From positions 1-34,304 of the forward strand of contig JANIHI010000018.1 in assembly GCA_024518585.1 (NCBI GenBank): 34,304 nucleotides of DNA. Direction: 5' to 3'. The stretch is from Methanolinea sp. (GTDB lineage: Archaea > Halobacteriota > Methanomicrobia > Methanomicrobiales > Methanospirillaceae). The position numbers and the translations under genes were made by a program. The notes beneath the pieces were generated by a model. That model did no database searches and was not told the DNA's origin. It saw only the letters and a program-made list of their open reading frames with translations. Below, piece by piece: positions 2,416 to 7,608 of this stretch (positions are counted from its first letter, which is position 1; the number at the start of each line of letters is the position of its first letter).

Positions 2416-2498
2416 GCGAGGGTTGCCGAGAGGTCAAAGGCGATGGATTTAGGGTCCATTCTCGCAGGAGTTCGGGGGTTCGAATCCCCTCCCTCGCA
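2416..2498 (+). tRNA. tRNA-Leu(TAG)
   Basis: A complete type II tRNA can be folded by eye. The acceptor stem GCGAGGG pairs with CCCTCGC, followed by discriminator A. The D arm is GCC/GGC, the anticodon stem ATGGA/TCCAT encloses TTTAGGG (anticodon TAG), the long variable arm contains CTC-GCAG-GAG, and the T arm GGGGG/CCCCT encloses TTCGAAT. There is no intron, and the 3' CCA is not encoded (TCG follows), as is common in archaea. The anticodon, long variable arm and A discriminator identify leucine. Confidence 0.97.
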
Positions 2499-2799: not shown

Positions 2800-3567
2800 C
2801 TAGCGTGCATCCCAGATCTCGAACCGGCAGAGGTTACTGCCCTTTGCATAACAGCTTGTCTCCACTGCCTGCTTCCCCTCGCCAAAGTGCGCGGAGAAGA
2901 GCGCAGAGAGCACGCCGGACCCAAAGGAACATTCGGCCTTTCCCGTCAGGGGAAGGTCCATGCATTCAAAACAGTCGCGGATGACGAGAGTAAAGGGGTC
3001 CTGCCGTTCAAGGTCCATCCGCCCAAGTCCGAACTTCTCCCAAAAAAGGGAGAGGTGGTTGATAAAGGCCATGGTGTCATCGTCCTGCACGCGGGGATAG
3101 ATGGCCTTTCCGGCCCTGTTACCTGCCGCGGAGAGGATGGGGTGGATGTCAATGCCTTCCGAGAGCAGGCTCACGCGGAGTGAAGTGAGGATGAAGCTGA
3201 AAACATCGCGTGTCGTTGCATCCGGAGAGAGAGCCTGCGGAAAAAACTGGTCTGCCCATTGCATCTCCCGGTCCAGGGCGAGAGTGCGCAAAACTATCCT
3301 GCCGTTCAGGGAAAAGATCCGCCGGCGTGCATCAGAGGGGTCGGGCCGTGACACCGTTATTCCCGCTTCCGTCAGGGCCTTGAGATGGACCGAGATGGTG
3401 GACTTTGCCCTCCCCAGGCGGCTGACGATCTCTTCGAAGTTCATCTCCCCTTCCTGGAGCATCTCGACGATCTTTCCCTTGAGAGGGCTGTCAATCGCCT
3501 TCAGCCCCCTGTCGGAGGCACAAATCTGGATGAATGGGTGATCTTCGCCTGGTTCCGGGAAAGGCAC
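2800..3567 (-). CDS. MsvR-like redox-sensing transcriptional regulator (HTH + V4R)
   Basis: 255 residues. An ArsR-type winged helix lies around residues 25-95 (SRLGRAKSTISVHLKALTEAG is the recognition region), and a V4R (4-vinyl-reductase-like) domain spans about 120-255. Cysteines at 199, 202, 213, 239 and 247 sit at the V4R C-terminus in the usual ...C(x7)C.FEI arrangement. This architecture and length match methanogen-specific MsvR, a DNA-binding thiol/disulfide switch controlling oxidative-stress and redox genes. The start is a GTG at 3567; AGGAG lies 13 bases upstream, slightly far, but no other in-frame start fits. A TATA box (3611-3619) and two MsvR-type operators lie upstream, suggesting autoregulation. 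It diverges from the gene at 3789. Confidence 0.85.
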   Translation of the reverse strand: MPFPEPGEDHPFIQICASDRGLKAIDSPLKGKIVEMLQEGEMNFEEIVSRLGRAKSTISVHLKALTEAGITVSRPDPSDARRRIFSLNGRIVLRTLALDREMQWADQFFPQALSPDATTRDVFSFILTSLRVSLLSEGIDIHPILSAAGNRAGKAIYPRVQDDDTMAFINHLSLFWEKFGLGRMDLERQDPFTLVIRDCFECMDLPLTGKAECSFGSGVLSALFSAHFGEGKQAVETSCYAKGSNLCRFEIWDAR

Positions 3568-3610
3568 GACCGTATCACTTCTCCTGCATGAGGAGAATGG
3601 TCACAAAAAG

Positions 3611-3619
3611 TATAAATAC
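3611..3619 (-). promoter_or_regulatory. TATA box of the MsvR-like gene (nearly bidirectional)
   Basis: The reverse strand reads TATTTATAC, and the forward strand reads TATAAATA. Leftward initiation would fall near 3588, leaving a leader of about 20 bases before the GTG. The same AT-rich element could serve the rightward gene with a long leader. Confidence 0.5.
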
Positions 3620-3625
3620 ATATGG

Positions 3626-3659
3626 TTCGTATATACTAGAATGTTCGTATGTTAACGAA
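3626..3659. promoter_or_regulatory. Two MsvR-type operator boxes in tandem
   Basis: TTCGTATATACTAGAA at 3626-3641 and TTCGTATGTTAACGAA at 3644-3659, with an 18-base period. The second has perfect outer arms GTTCGT/ACGAAC. Both resemble the TTCGTA-N4-TACGAA box I recall as reported for MsvR; box 1 has two mismatches in its right arm and box 2 has one. They lie directly upstream of the TATA box of the MsvR-like gene, in the region shared with the divergent gene. Confidence 0.65.
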
Positions 3660-3788
3660 CAATTAACCGGGCGGCCTGCAACATCGCAGCCCGCCGGTGG
3701 TAACACCAGGAAAAACTGTCCCTCATCGGGGCGGCGCATCCCTGGTCGGAACTGGTCAATGAATTCCCAGGAAAAAGGAGAAATCTGC

Positions 3789-4058
3789 ATGACACTGGCA
3801 TCAACCCCTGCCCAGGCAAACGGGGTGGAGATGAAGGCCCCGGTATCGGGAACCGACCTGCCTTCATCTGCAAAGGCAGTCCTTGTACTGCTTTCCGACG
3901 GAAAAGAGCGAACCCTGAACGAAATAATCGGCAAGGTGCCATTTTCGCCCCGGACGATACGGAATGCGCTCACCCGGCTGCGGGAAGGCGGTCTCATTAT
4001 TGCCAAGTTCAACTTCAGGGACGCGCGCAAGCCCCTCTACAGGTTAAAGACCGCATAA
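3789..4058 (+). CDS. Small winged-helix DNA-binding protein, 89 aa
   Basis: A single wHTH domain over residues 25-87. Helices around KAVLVLLSDGKERTLNEII and SPRTIRNALTRLREGGLI are followed by a wing (FRDARKPLYRL), as in MarR/ArsR-like fold proteins. The first 25 residues are low complexity. GGAG lies eight bases before the ATG at 3789, which makes this start preferable to upstream in-frame ATGs. It is divergent from the MsvR-like regulator and likely under the shared operators. It probably acts as a transcriptional regulator or accessory repressor; the target is unknown. A run of six T at 4081-4086 shortly after the stop may terminate it. Confidence 0.8.
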   Translation: MTLASTPAQANGVEMKAPVSGTDLPSSAKAVLVLLSDGKERTLNEIIGKVPFSPRTIRNALTRLREGGLIIAKFNFRDARKPLYRLKTA

Positions 4059-4266: not shown

Positions 4267-5202
4267 TCATACATCGACCCCGAAGAAGACGCGGATAACG
4301 ACCCCGATGAGGAAGGATACCCCTGCAATTCCCAGCGATAGTGCTGCCATCTCGGCAAAACGTCTCCCGAAAGGAAGGTCAAGTGTCACGGATGTGTACC
4401 CTGTAAACGCGATGATAACAAGAATGGCAAAGACGAGGGTCACGAGGTATGCCAGGAAGGGGTTTTTCACCAGGACAAATGGCAGGACTAGGATGAGGAC
4501 CGTGAGGATGTAGGTTGTGCCGGTATAGAGAGCTGCCTTCCCGGGGCGGGGCGAGGTCCTGTCTGACTTCTGCGAGAGGTACTCGGATGCCCCCATGGAG
4601 AGGGCAGCCGCGATCCCCATGATGCTCCCGACCGCGGCTATGAGGGCGGGGTCCTGCAATGCAAACGTGAACCCGGCAAGGCTCCCTGTGAATTCAACGA
4701 GGGCATCGTTCAACCCGAGAACAATCGACCCGATGTAGCGGAGCCTTTCTTCCGCGAGCATGGCGACGATTGCTTTCTCGTGCTGTTCCTCGTCCCAGAT
4801 AACCTCTTCGATCCCCGGGACATGGTCGGATACGGAACGGTAGGTTCCGACGGTACTGCCTTCGCTCCTCTCCATGAGCTTGATGGCAAAGGTTACTCCA
4901 AGGAGCTTTGCAAGAATGACGTAAAGCCAGACGCGAACGGTGTCCGGCCCCCCCTCCACACCCGCAAGTGTCTGCCAGAACCGCGCGTGTGAAAGTTCTT
5001 CGCGGGCCATTTTCTCCAGGACACTCGCGTTTTTTGCATCCCTCATCATTCCCGCAAGTCTTTGATAAATGTGGTGCTCGGTCACCTCGTCCTTCTGGAA
5101 TAAGCGAGCCATCTCCACCAGGTTGGGATGATGTCCCTGGTCTGTTCCTGTGGGAGGAACGGGAATATCCCCTCCTGTCTCGGTGACCCGGTCTTTAGCC
5201 AT
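4267..5202 (-). CDS. Ferritin-like/VIT1 fusion, membrane iron (Fe/Mn) transporter
   Basis: 311 residues. The N-terminal third (about 25-150) is a rubrerythrin-type ferritin-like helical domain with likely di-iron ligands in TEHHIYQRL, REELSHARF and DEEQHE. Residues 155-311 are a VIT/CCC1 membrane domain with LGLNDALVEFTGSLAGFTFA, the GIAAALSMGASEYLSQKSD motif and three further helices. This matches the Er-VIT/MbfA family, which exports or sequesters Fe2+. An in-frame ATG at 5250 has no ribosome-binding site; the ATG at 5202 follows GGGGTG at six bases, so it is chosen. It stands alone, convergent with the wHTH gene. Confidence 0.9.
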   Translation of the reverse strand: MAKDRVTETGGDIPVPPTGTDQGHHPNLVEMARLFQKDEVTEHHIYQRLAGMMRDAKNASVLEKMAREELSHARFWQTLAGVEGGPDTVRVWLYVILAKLLGVTFAIKLMERSEGSTVGTYRSVSDHVPGIEEVIWDEEQHEKAIVAMLAEERLRYIGSIVLGLNDALVEFTGSLAGFTFALQDPALIAAVGSIMGIAAALSMGASEYLSQKSDRTSPRPGKAALYTGTTYILTVLILVLPFVLVKNPFLAYLVTLVFAILVIIAFTGYTSVTLDLPFGRRFAEMAALSLGIAGVSFLIGVVIRVFFGVDV

Positions 5203-5522
5203 GAGTTGCACCCCGGGAAGTTGCCATGGTTTGGCCCTTCTCCCAACCATGGGAATGAAATGGATTAATAGGTTCTTATTTTGTCAGAAAATGTCACCGG
5301 CAGGAATTTTTACGATTCCGGTGACCCTCCCGTGACCGGAAAGGGACAACGGGGGACTCATTGGCCTCATGGCAGGTACGATCATCGCCACAATTGCGCT
5401 CCACATCAGGCCAAGGTCCACCAGCGAGACCCGGGCGGCACACACGTTCTTCCTCCGGGTCGCCACTCTCCTTCTGATCCCGATCGTCCTGCTCCTGTCA
5501 TGCCCCTCCTGGAGACAGGCGG
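5203..5522. other. Intergenic with VIT promoter and inverted repeats
   Basis: A candidate leftward TATA element lies at 5258-5266 (CTATTAATC on the reverse strand). An 8-base inverted repeat GTCACCGG (5293-5300) / CCGGTGAC (5318-5325) encloses 17 AT-rich bases, and a GTGACCGG follows at 5332-5339; this could be an operator. A weak hairpin CCTGTC/GACAGG (5494-5519) sits just past the stop of the TiaS-like gene. Short frames on both strands (5369 onward rightward, 5284-5466 leftward) contradict each other, and I do not call either. Confidence 0.4.
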
Positions 5523-6638
5523 TTAAGTCTCCGGTGGGATCGGGGCGAAGGGACGGAGGAGGACTTCATGGGGCAGGCCCGAGAGGGCAAGTGCCGCAAG
5601 GGCACCGATCCTGCCCCTCCCCCCGAAGAGATCGATCTCCCACCGTGTGGCGGTTGCCTCCGCCTCGCCGATGGAAATGACCTCCCGCCTTGCCCTCTCG
5701 CCAAAAGCCCGGAGCTCCGGGGGGACCGAGAAGCCCCTGCGCATCGCAATACCCCATTCGGGAGAGAGGGACTCGTCCTGGACGAAAAAGAGTGCCCTGT
5801 CCCGCACGTTTTCGTACTGGCCGGGAGGGATTGCCACTTCAATGTAACTACACGAGTTTCCGGCAGTTTTTTGGGGTATGGCCGGATTGAGCATCACAAC
5901 GTGGTGGCTGATGGGGAGAACCCCCCTGATGGTCTCGAGGTGCTGGAGCAGGGCAAGGGCGAGTGCAAACGTTGCCCCCCCCTCGCGCGAGTCCGTGTCA
6001 TCGACCCCGATGACGAGGTGGACAAGGGCACGGGTCCTCACGCTGCCTTCCACGATCTTCCCCTCCCTGCTGATCTTCACTTCGCAGACCCCCTCGGCCT
6101 TTGCCATCATGTCGGTGAGGGAGTAGGCAGGCCCGCCGATGCACCGGATGTGCTGGATGATGTCTGACCCCTCTTTCTCGACCCCTGCGACACCGACAGA
6201 CGATGCAGGAAAAAGGCCGATCTCCACGTCGCGTCGCCCCACGTGTGCCCACTCCCGGAGGAGAGTCCCGTCCCTCTCCACGCCCTGCAGGACTCCTCCC
6301 GCCCGGGAATGGTGGTACGCACAGAAGGCGGCACAGGCACTGCTCATGCACTCGTGGTGGATCTCGACCCTGTCGCCGTCGGTCGTGGTAAAAATCCGCC
6401 GGCATGCACTCGAGGGAAGGGCACTGATTGCCGCATATCGTGCAGGAATGCGACCCATCTTCCGTTCCCTGACGACAACGCACCCTTCATCAAGGAGCCT
6501 GTTGATCCAGTCCTGCGCAGTGCTGCGGGGGACTCCTGCGCCCTTCTGGATGTCTGTGACGGTGAAGTAACCCTGTTCCAGGGTACAGGTCCGCATCAGC
6601 CGCAGGAATTCACGGCGCTTTCTTATGACTCCCCGCAT
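5523..6638 (-). CDS. TiaS-like protein with N-terminal HTH (methanogenesis marker 11-type?)
   Basis: 371 residues. Residues 10-70 form a winged-helix-like domain (VTDIQKGAGVPRSTAQDWIN). A Cys/His-rich segment HHECMSSACAAFCAYHH lies at 95-110. GVDDTDSREGGATFALALAL at 211-230 is the nucleotide-binding signature of TiaS (tRNA-Ile2 agmatinylcytidine synthase) and related proteins, among them, as I recall, methanogenesis marker protein 11. It lacks the OB-fold and zinc C-terminus of full TiaS, so it is probably not TiaS itself. The ATG at 6638 lies inside hom (29-base overlap), implying translational coupling; the open frame runs back to 6710 but without a better start. The molecular function is unknown. 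Confidence 0.65.
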   Translation of the reverse strand: MRGVIRKRREFLRLMRTCTLEQGYFTVTDIQKGAGVPRSTAQDWINRLLDEGCVVVRERKMGRIPARYAAISALPSSACRRIFTTTDGDRVEIHHECMSSACAAFCAYHHSRAGGVLQGVERDGTLLREWAHVGRRDVEIGLFPASSVGVAGVEKEGSDIIQHIRCIGGPAYSLTDMMAKAEGVCEVKISREGKIVEGSVRTRALVHLVIGVDDTDSREGGATFALALALLQHLETIRGVLPISHHVVMLNPAIPQKTAGNSCSYIEVAIPPGQYENVRDRALFFVQDESLSPEWGIAMRRGFSVPPELRAFGERARREVISIGEAEATATRWEIDLFGGRGRIGALAALALSGLPHEVLLRPFAPIPPET

Positions 6639-7608
6639 GGAAATCCCGGATAAAGAGGATGTCACCAATGATGGCGCTGGCCGTCTCGACGGACCCGGCC
6701 CCCTTCCCAATCAGGGTGATCTCTCCGGCAAGGTCTGTCTCGATGGTGATCGCGTTGAGAGTCCCTTCAACGACGAGGGGGTGGGAGAGGGGGAGGAGCC
6801 GGGGTGCAACCCGCAGGATTCCCCTCTCGGGGTTAGCCTCCGCAATGAGCCTGATGGTGCAGTCCTCTTCCTCGGCCAGCCGGATGGCGTCGTTCGTGAT
6901 CATGTCGATCCCGGTGATATCCACGTCCTCGAGCTGGACAGTCTTCTTCCAGAAGGTATTTGCGAGGATGACGAGCTTGATGGCAGGGTCAATACCCTTG
7001 ACGTCGTAGGTGGGGTCAGCCTCTGCATACCCCATCTCCCGTGCCTCGAGGAGTGCCTGCTCATAGGAGAGCCCTTCCGCCGCCATCCGGGAGAGGATAA
7101 AGTTGCATGTCCCGTTCAAAACACCATAAATGGCTCGGACGCGGTTCCCGGCGAGTCCCTGCTGCAACACGTGGATGACGGGGATGGCCCCCCCGACAGT
7201 TGCCTCGTAGCGCAGCATGACCCCGTTCTTTGCGGCACACCGGTGGAGGCGTTCAAATTCACGGGCGATAGGCCCCTTGTTCGAGGTGACGACGTGGCGG
7301 CCGCGGGTGAGTGCCTGGAGGATGTGCGTGAGGGCCGGTTCACCCGTCGTCGCATTCGTGGGAGTCACTTCAACGAGCACGTCATACGCAGCCTTCGTCA
7401 CGACGTCCACCGAGGAGAGCGATGTATCACCGCAGTACCCGTGGATTTTCTTTGCCTCGAGGACCTCCTCGATACTGATACCGTCCCTGTCCATGAGGGC
7501 ACTTTTCGAGTCTGCGACCGCCGTGACAGTAATACCGAGGTCCTTTTGGTTGATTACCTGCAGGAGGCCCTTTCCGACCGATCCCATGCCAAGGATGGCG
7601 ACCCTCAT
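6610..7608 (-). CDS. hom: Homoserine dehydrogenase
   Basis: 332 residues, the short form without a fused ACT domain. It reduces aspartate semialdehyde to homoserine in threonine/methionine biosynthesis. The N-terminal Rossmann motif ILGMGSVGKG is at 5-14, the conserved VTSNKGPIA follows near 110, and the catalytic region with GVLNGTCNFIL and AEADPTYDVKGIDPAIKL is intact. The ATG at 7608 overlaps the stop of the upstream ACT gene by four bases (ATGA). The ACT protein encoded just upstream probably supplies the allosteric amino-acid binding missing here. The 3' end overlaps the TiaS-like gene. Confidence 0.95.
   Translation of the reverse strand: MRVAILGMGSVGKGLLQVINQKDLGITVTAVADSKSALMDRDGISIEEVLEAKKIHGYCGDTSLSSVDVVTKAAYDVLVEVTPTNATTGEPALTHILQALTRGRHVVTSNKGPIAREFERLHRCAAKNGVMLRYEATVGGAIPVIHVLQQGLAGNRVRAIYGVLNGTCNFILSRMAAEGLSYEQALLEAREMGYAEADPTYDVKGIDPAIKLVILANTFWKKTVQLEDVDITGIDMITNDAIRLAEEEDCTIRLIAEANPERGILRVAPRLLPLSHPLVVEGTLNAITIETDLAGEITLIGKGAGSVETASAIIGDILFIRDFHAGSHKKAP

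Follow-up and report, generated by a model that had tools for sequence, protein, structure and literature searches.

The locus analyzed here lies in a stretch of DNA of 34,304 nucleotides from Methanolinea sp. (contig JANIHI010000018.1 of GenBank assembly GCA_024518585.1, hereafter termed the window), in which a gene for the redox regulator MsvR is transcribed divergently from a gene for a small winged helix-turn-helix (wHTH) protein. Very few redox switches have been described in methanogens. MsvR is among them, and which genes it controls apart from its own and fpaA, encoding the oxygen-removing enzyme F420H2 oxidase, is not settled. An earlier inspection of the DNA letters (the sequence-only reading) had proposed that two MsvR-type operators lie between the two genes. 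The features of the locus are as follows.

2800 to 3567, minus strand: msvR, encoding a protein of 255 amino acids from a GTG start, with an ArsR-type wHTH domain, a V4R domain and five invariant cysteines.
3603 to 3618, plus strand: putative transcription factor B recognition element (BRE) and TATA box (ACAAAAAG + TATAAATA), with a sequence polarity toward the wHTH gene.
3626 to 3641, plus strand: predicted MsvR box 1, TTCGTATATACTAGAA, proximal to msvR and recognized by its match to the published motif and its conservation across relatives.
3644 to 3659, plus strand: predicted MsvR box 2, TTCGTATGTTAACGAA, near the predicted start of the wHTH transcript and recognized on the same two grounds.
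3660 to 3788, plus strand: remainder of the wHTH leader, not conserved in sequence, with a Shine-Dalgarno-like GGAG near 3778.
3789 to 4058, plus strand: the wHTH gene, encoding a single-domain wHTH protein of 89 amino acids, divergent to msvR.

The 255-residue regulator matched the curated MsvR equivalog model NF053755 of NCBIfam at 248.3 bits (cutoff, 220) over residues 18-251, with Pfam domains HTH_5 (ArsR-type wHTH) at 28-70 and V4R at 194-251. Comparison of 16 orthologues revealed that Cys-199, Cys-202, Cys-213, Cys-239, and Cys-247 are invariant. The segment C199-F-E-C202-M-D-L-P (CFECMDLP) is a CX2CX3P variant of the CX2CX3H motif, and a proline in place of the histidine has been described for some MsvR homologues (PMC3729527). 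The V4R cysteines are known to tune DNA binding by MsvR of Methanosarcina acetivorans (PMC3729527). At least two boxes upstream of its own gene, a further hallmark of the family, are present in the window. By sequence, the regulator is an MsvR orthologue, and the curated model and the cysteines bear out its earlier description as MsvR-like. Downstream of msvR lies a tRNA-Leu gene (2416-2498, plus strand).

The published MsvR motif, a partial inverted repeat, reads TTCGTAN4TACGAA or TTCGN7-9CGAA and occurs twice upstream of every known msvR (PMC3729527). The two boxes that the sequence-only reading had placed 18 bases apart beside an HTH-V4R regulator were confirmed at 3626-3641 and 3644-3659, with a start-to-start distance of 18 bp and a gap of 2 bp. 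Relative to TTCGTAN4TACGAA, box 1 carries three mismatches and box 2 carries one; the arms of box 2, earlier called perfect, are so in the form TTCG...CGAA but not in the longer form. Among 56 loci, for which all percentages are conditional on resemblance to the core described below, the left half TTCG was near invariant in both boxes (98% and 96%). The right arm of box 2 read CGAA in 75%, and that of box 1 did so in 0/56 loci, ending instead in GAA in 82%. The inverted-repeat form given earlier is upheld as a match to the published motif but not as a symmetrical element, and the Methanomicrobiales site is better described as a direct repeat of TTCGTA at an 18-bp interval, its right arms being weaker, than as two inverted repeats.

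Single boxes were uninformative because they were no commoner than expectation or a reversed control, and it is the box pair that carries the signal. At two or fewer mismatches, 10 single-box matches were observed in the window against 18 expected, and at three mismatches the genome contained 196 per strand compared with 398 for the reversed control. By contrast, a 22-bp core spanning the pair, TTCGNANANNNTRRAAYRTTCG, had only one match with at most one mismatch in this 1.78-Mb genome, the control giving 0 in nearly all genomes. The exact core was present as one copy in each of 61/232 Methanomicrobiales genomes, never as two, and the reversed control gave 0 in all 232; the core was derived from the same loci, such that these counts express uniqueness and rarity and not an unbiased discovery rate. 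The 34-bp double box was found as a single copy in each of 16/61 genomes (control, 0). Alignment of the 13 genomes of the genus revealed a mean column identity of 0.87-0.91 over 3609-3653, the sole strongly conserved stretch between msvR and the wHTH gene, compared with 0.47-0.64 over most of the length of the wHTH leader. The boxes are also conserved upstream of regulator orthologues in related genomes, a check that the sequence-only reading had suggested.

A wider MsvR regulon based on single boxes was considered and rejected, genome matches at three or fewer mismatches being no more frequent than in reversed controls. Several of the best single-box matches were inspected for context and no clear promoter was seen among them; one (TTCGATATTATACGAA at C25:29313) adjoins a GC-rich terminator-like hairpin, and another (C8:17899) is located within a coding frame. 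Stringent single boxes in the 13 genus genomes indicated no common second gene, as judged from the list of sites.

To establish which genes face the operator in relatives, 80 named MsvR loci were taken and the gene across the operator (the client) was typed, each family being confirmed on one example (fpaA as the ODP/flavodoxin type, fwdB as TIGR03129, msrB as TIGR00357, and sod as Sod_Fe). The client was fpaA at 31 loci, the wHTH gene at 18, fwdB at 8, msrB at 3, a PAS-type gene at 3, and sod at 1, the rest being untyped. The core was kept with at most one mismatch in 54/57 fpaA, fwdB, and wHTH loci, weaker versions were present at the msrB and sod loci, and the 3 PAS-type loci had no recognizable operator. 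The ATG of fpaA mostly lies ∼10-15 bp past box 2; at L197, a partial match lies ∼400 bp further away. In a quick tree of MsvR, in which long-branch placements are unsure, the client changes at least eight times, and fwdB occurs in two separate places: the clade that holds all wHTH loci and a Methanoculleus subclade. The MsvR paralogues at L210, L216, L220, L221, L226, and L231 have no recognizable double operator, three of them facing a gene of the wHTH-PAS type, and may read another site.

A further arrangement was observed in three Methanocalculus-type genomes (G041, G046, and G051), in which the divergent neighbor of msvR is msrB and fpaA is found on a different contig. These fpaA genes, although distant from msvR, still have the two-box operator 46-47 bp before the ATG, which argues that the operator serves the plus-strand gene on its own. 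The msvR-type fpaA, which elsewhere shows at least ∼49% identity, is missing throughout the genus Methanolinea, each genome of which has only a paralogue at 33-37%. The client in the window is not fpaA but the 89-amino acid wHTH gene.

The polarity of the promoter elements also points to the client. The sequence CAAAAAGTATAWATA is kept in the wHTH class and in most members of the fwdB class, with BRE preceding TATA in the direction of the client. In the fpaA class of Methanoculleus, a TCGAAAGG...GATATATC element (TCGAAAGGATGATATATC) is present at a similar distance from box 1, again with BRE then TATA toward the client. The sequence-only reading had assigned the TATA box next to the operators to the HTH-V4R regulator; it does adjoin box 1, but the conserved BRE/TATA points toward the wHTH gene and not, or not only, toward msvR, for which the TATA at 3611-3618 may also be read on the minus strand. 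The usual archaeal spacing between TATA and transcript start is ∼25 bp, and the position of the BRE/TATA therefore predicts a client start between or within the boxes. The order in the window, with the boxes (3626-3659) between the client BRE/TATA (3603-3618) and the client ATG (3789), is that of the MsvR-controlled divergent promoters of the fpaA type. The predicted start agrees with the situation in Methanothermobacter thermautotrophicus, where, from the description of Karr 2010 given in PMC3729527, the boxes overlap the fpaA start and the BRE/TATA of msvR.

The wHTH gene is divergent to msvR in 13/13 genus genomes, with both start codon and side kept, and also in several genomes outside the genus. 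It is under purifying selection (median pN/pS, 0.24). Structure prediction gave a simple winged helix for the protein (pLDDT 78), and the matches to it in the PDB were MarR/ArsR-like; Pfam HTH matches were weak. From the model, we infer that the protein acts as a transcription factor. It contains 0 cysteines in the window, and 11/13 genus orthologues have one; a function as a thiol switch in its own right was judged unlikely, given the copy devoid of cysteine. In being a small archaeal wHTH protein with a single domain and a putative tie to oxidative stress, it resembles the TrmB-family thiol switch of Haloferax volcanii (PMC9426492), but it differs in not being a TrmB protein by Pfam and in lacking the cysteine present in most orthologues. 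No TrmB family match was obtained at an E-value of 0.01 for 26 relatives.

Gene order in relatives suggests how the wHTH gene reached the operator. In G024 the order is msvR, divergent fwdB, and then the wHTH gene; in G035 (locus L177) a 45-residue start of fwdB (89% identity) is left ahead of the wHTH gene; and in Methanolinea the wHTH gene is directly at the operator. As judged from these arrangements, the wHTH gene probably replaced an enzyme client in Methanolinea via a fwdB-wHTH intermediate, for which loss of the intervening fwdB would be the simplest route. The frame at L177 (G035:C13:166189-166380) diverges after the 45-residue fwdB start and resembles a pseudogene or short leftover open reading frame (ORF). 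In G024, the fwdB beside msvR (L092, G024:C1:1888663-1889979) and the main copy (G024:C1:1100967-1102283) encode identical proteins and are 98.9% identical in DNA (14/1320 positions differ), with similarity that ends at the ORF ends. By this comparison, the copy under the MsvR operator arose recently from a methanogenesis gene, by duplication or gene conversion. A link between fwdB and MsvR was not found in the literature searched, in which subscription journals are poorly covered; one paper contained both terms and mentioned the enzyme once.

These observations can be explained by a shared operator, to which we assign a probability of roughly 75%: reduced MsvR would repress both msvR and the wHTH gene, and oxidation would release both. 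Action on the plus-strand gene is argued by the operator at distant fpaA genes, the polarity of the BRE/TATA, and the selection on the wHTH gene with its kept start and side. The interval 3603-3659 would form a compact two-faced control region in which the BRE/TATA is followed immediately by two MsvR boxes. Reduced MsvR dimers on both boxes would obstruct the basal factors or the polymerase at msvR as well as at the wHTH gene. Oxidants would then alter the V4R cysteines, causing MsvR to release or change shape and allowing both genes to be expressed. Box binding and repression that depend on the redox state are known only for the Methanothermobacter and Methanosarcina proteins, MthMsvR and MaMsvR (PMC3729527); MsvR binding at these boxes, repression of the wHTH gene, and the start sites are predictions for Methanolinea.

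As in M. thermautotrophicus, msvR is divergent from a client with overlapping promoters and the same motif; the differences are that two boxes were recognized in Methanolinea rather than at least three and that the client leader is long. As in M. acetivorans, where boxes A and B are required for binding (PMC3729527), two boxes lie upstream of msvR. MsvR, its boxes, and its autoregulation are thus already known, and the match to the published motif agrees with the autoregulation envisaged in the sequence-only reading. What is new is a regulator in place of an enzyme client at a known operator, which in most relatives faces fpaA. The invariant divergent pairing in the genus and the same operator facing fpaA or fwdB elsewhere lend good comparative support to the earlier idea that the wHTH gene may be a new member of the regulon.

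Several points weigh against a shared operator. The wHTH leader would be ∼150 nucleotides long compared with 30-50 nucleotides predicted for fpaA, such that a separate promoter nearer the gene is possible. The BRE/TATA assignment is made from sequence polarity, and the proposal as a whole is built on sequence comparison. In addition, MaMsvR bound only its own promoter among the targets tested, the motif alone being insufficient for binding.

The best surviving alternative, which we consider unlikely, is that the boxes serve MsvR autoregulation alone and that the wHTH gene is an unlinked neighbor transcribed from a separate promoter within the 130-bp leader. At its locus, MaMsvR reportedly regulates its own promoter and no other (PMC3729527), and in Methanolinea the wHTH start is 130 bp from box 2 behind a poorly conserved leader. 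Against this alternative, no conserved TATA-like element was visible in the aligned wHTH leaders, and the BRE/TATA beside the boxes is oriented toward the client. The operator before distant fpaA genes (at −46/−47) and the unbroken msvR-wHTH pairing in the genus argue in the same direction. Unlike in M. acetivorans, the divergent gene in Methanolinea appears to share the operator.

A second alternative, that the boxes are bound mainly by the wHTH protein rather than by MsvR and that the region is chiefly an autoregulatory site of the wHTH gene, is very improbable. The wHTH gene adjoins the boxes, and autoregulation is common among small wHTH proteins of archaea. However, the same boxes also occur next to msvR at loci with an fpaA or fwdB client and no wHTH gene, and binding of this motif by MsvR is already published (PMC3729527). 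The idea that an AT-rich promoter resembles MsvR boxes by chance can be dismissed: single boxes are indeed as common as chance when two or three mismatches are allowed, but the joint core, once per genome in 61/232 genomes and 0 in the reversed control, is the best conserved stretch between both genes, a phylogenetic footprint that refutes chance.

If the operator is shared, the direct output of the switch in Methanolinea would be a second regulator instead of a detoxifying enzyme, and the oxidative stress signal is probably passed on to it. In the Methanomicrobiales, a strong operator is present once per genome, serving msvR and one exchangeable client; the candidates are F420H2 oxidase, a spare formylmethanofuran dehydrogenase subunit B, methionine sulfoxide reductase B, superoxide dismutase, and the small wHTH regulator. 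The prediction is that, in strict anaerobes, one oxygen switch can be rewired through exchange of the gene beside a fixed site. More tentatively, at slightly below even odds, the MsvR switch in Methanolinea may have been rewired from directly controlling an oxygen-removing enzyme to a relay, with msvR and a second transcription factor both driven by the single strong operator; this operator would be a one-per-genome slot whose client was swapped repeatedly (fpaA, a second fwdB copy at least two times, msrB, sod, and wHTH). No study of a Methanolinea redox regulator was found in the literature searched, which is weak evidence of novelty given the same poor coverage of subscription journals.

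A structured RNA in the wHTH leader (3660-3788 and orthologues) was also considered and rejected. A hairpin could be drawn in 12/12 leaders but was no stronger than in the coding control, dinucleotide z-scores being −1.7 on average for the leaders and −1.7 for the wHTH coding start. The consensus fold had almost zero energy, and the leader had no match in Rfam.

Two further genes lie beyond the wHTH gene. The more distant (5523-6710, minus strand) encodes a TrmB-like wHTH fused to a methanogenesis marker protein 11/TiaS TCKD-like domain, scoring below the curated cutoff for marker 11. The nearer (4267-5250, minus strand), which in most genomes of the genus is a conserved convergent neighbor of the wHTH gene, encodes a protein whose N-terminal half is rubrerythrin/COQ7-like and whose C-terminal part is VIT1. 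This protein recalls the iron exporter MbfA and is perhaps also tied to oxidative stress.
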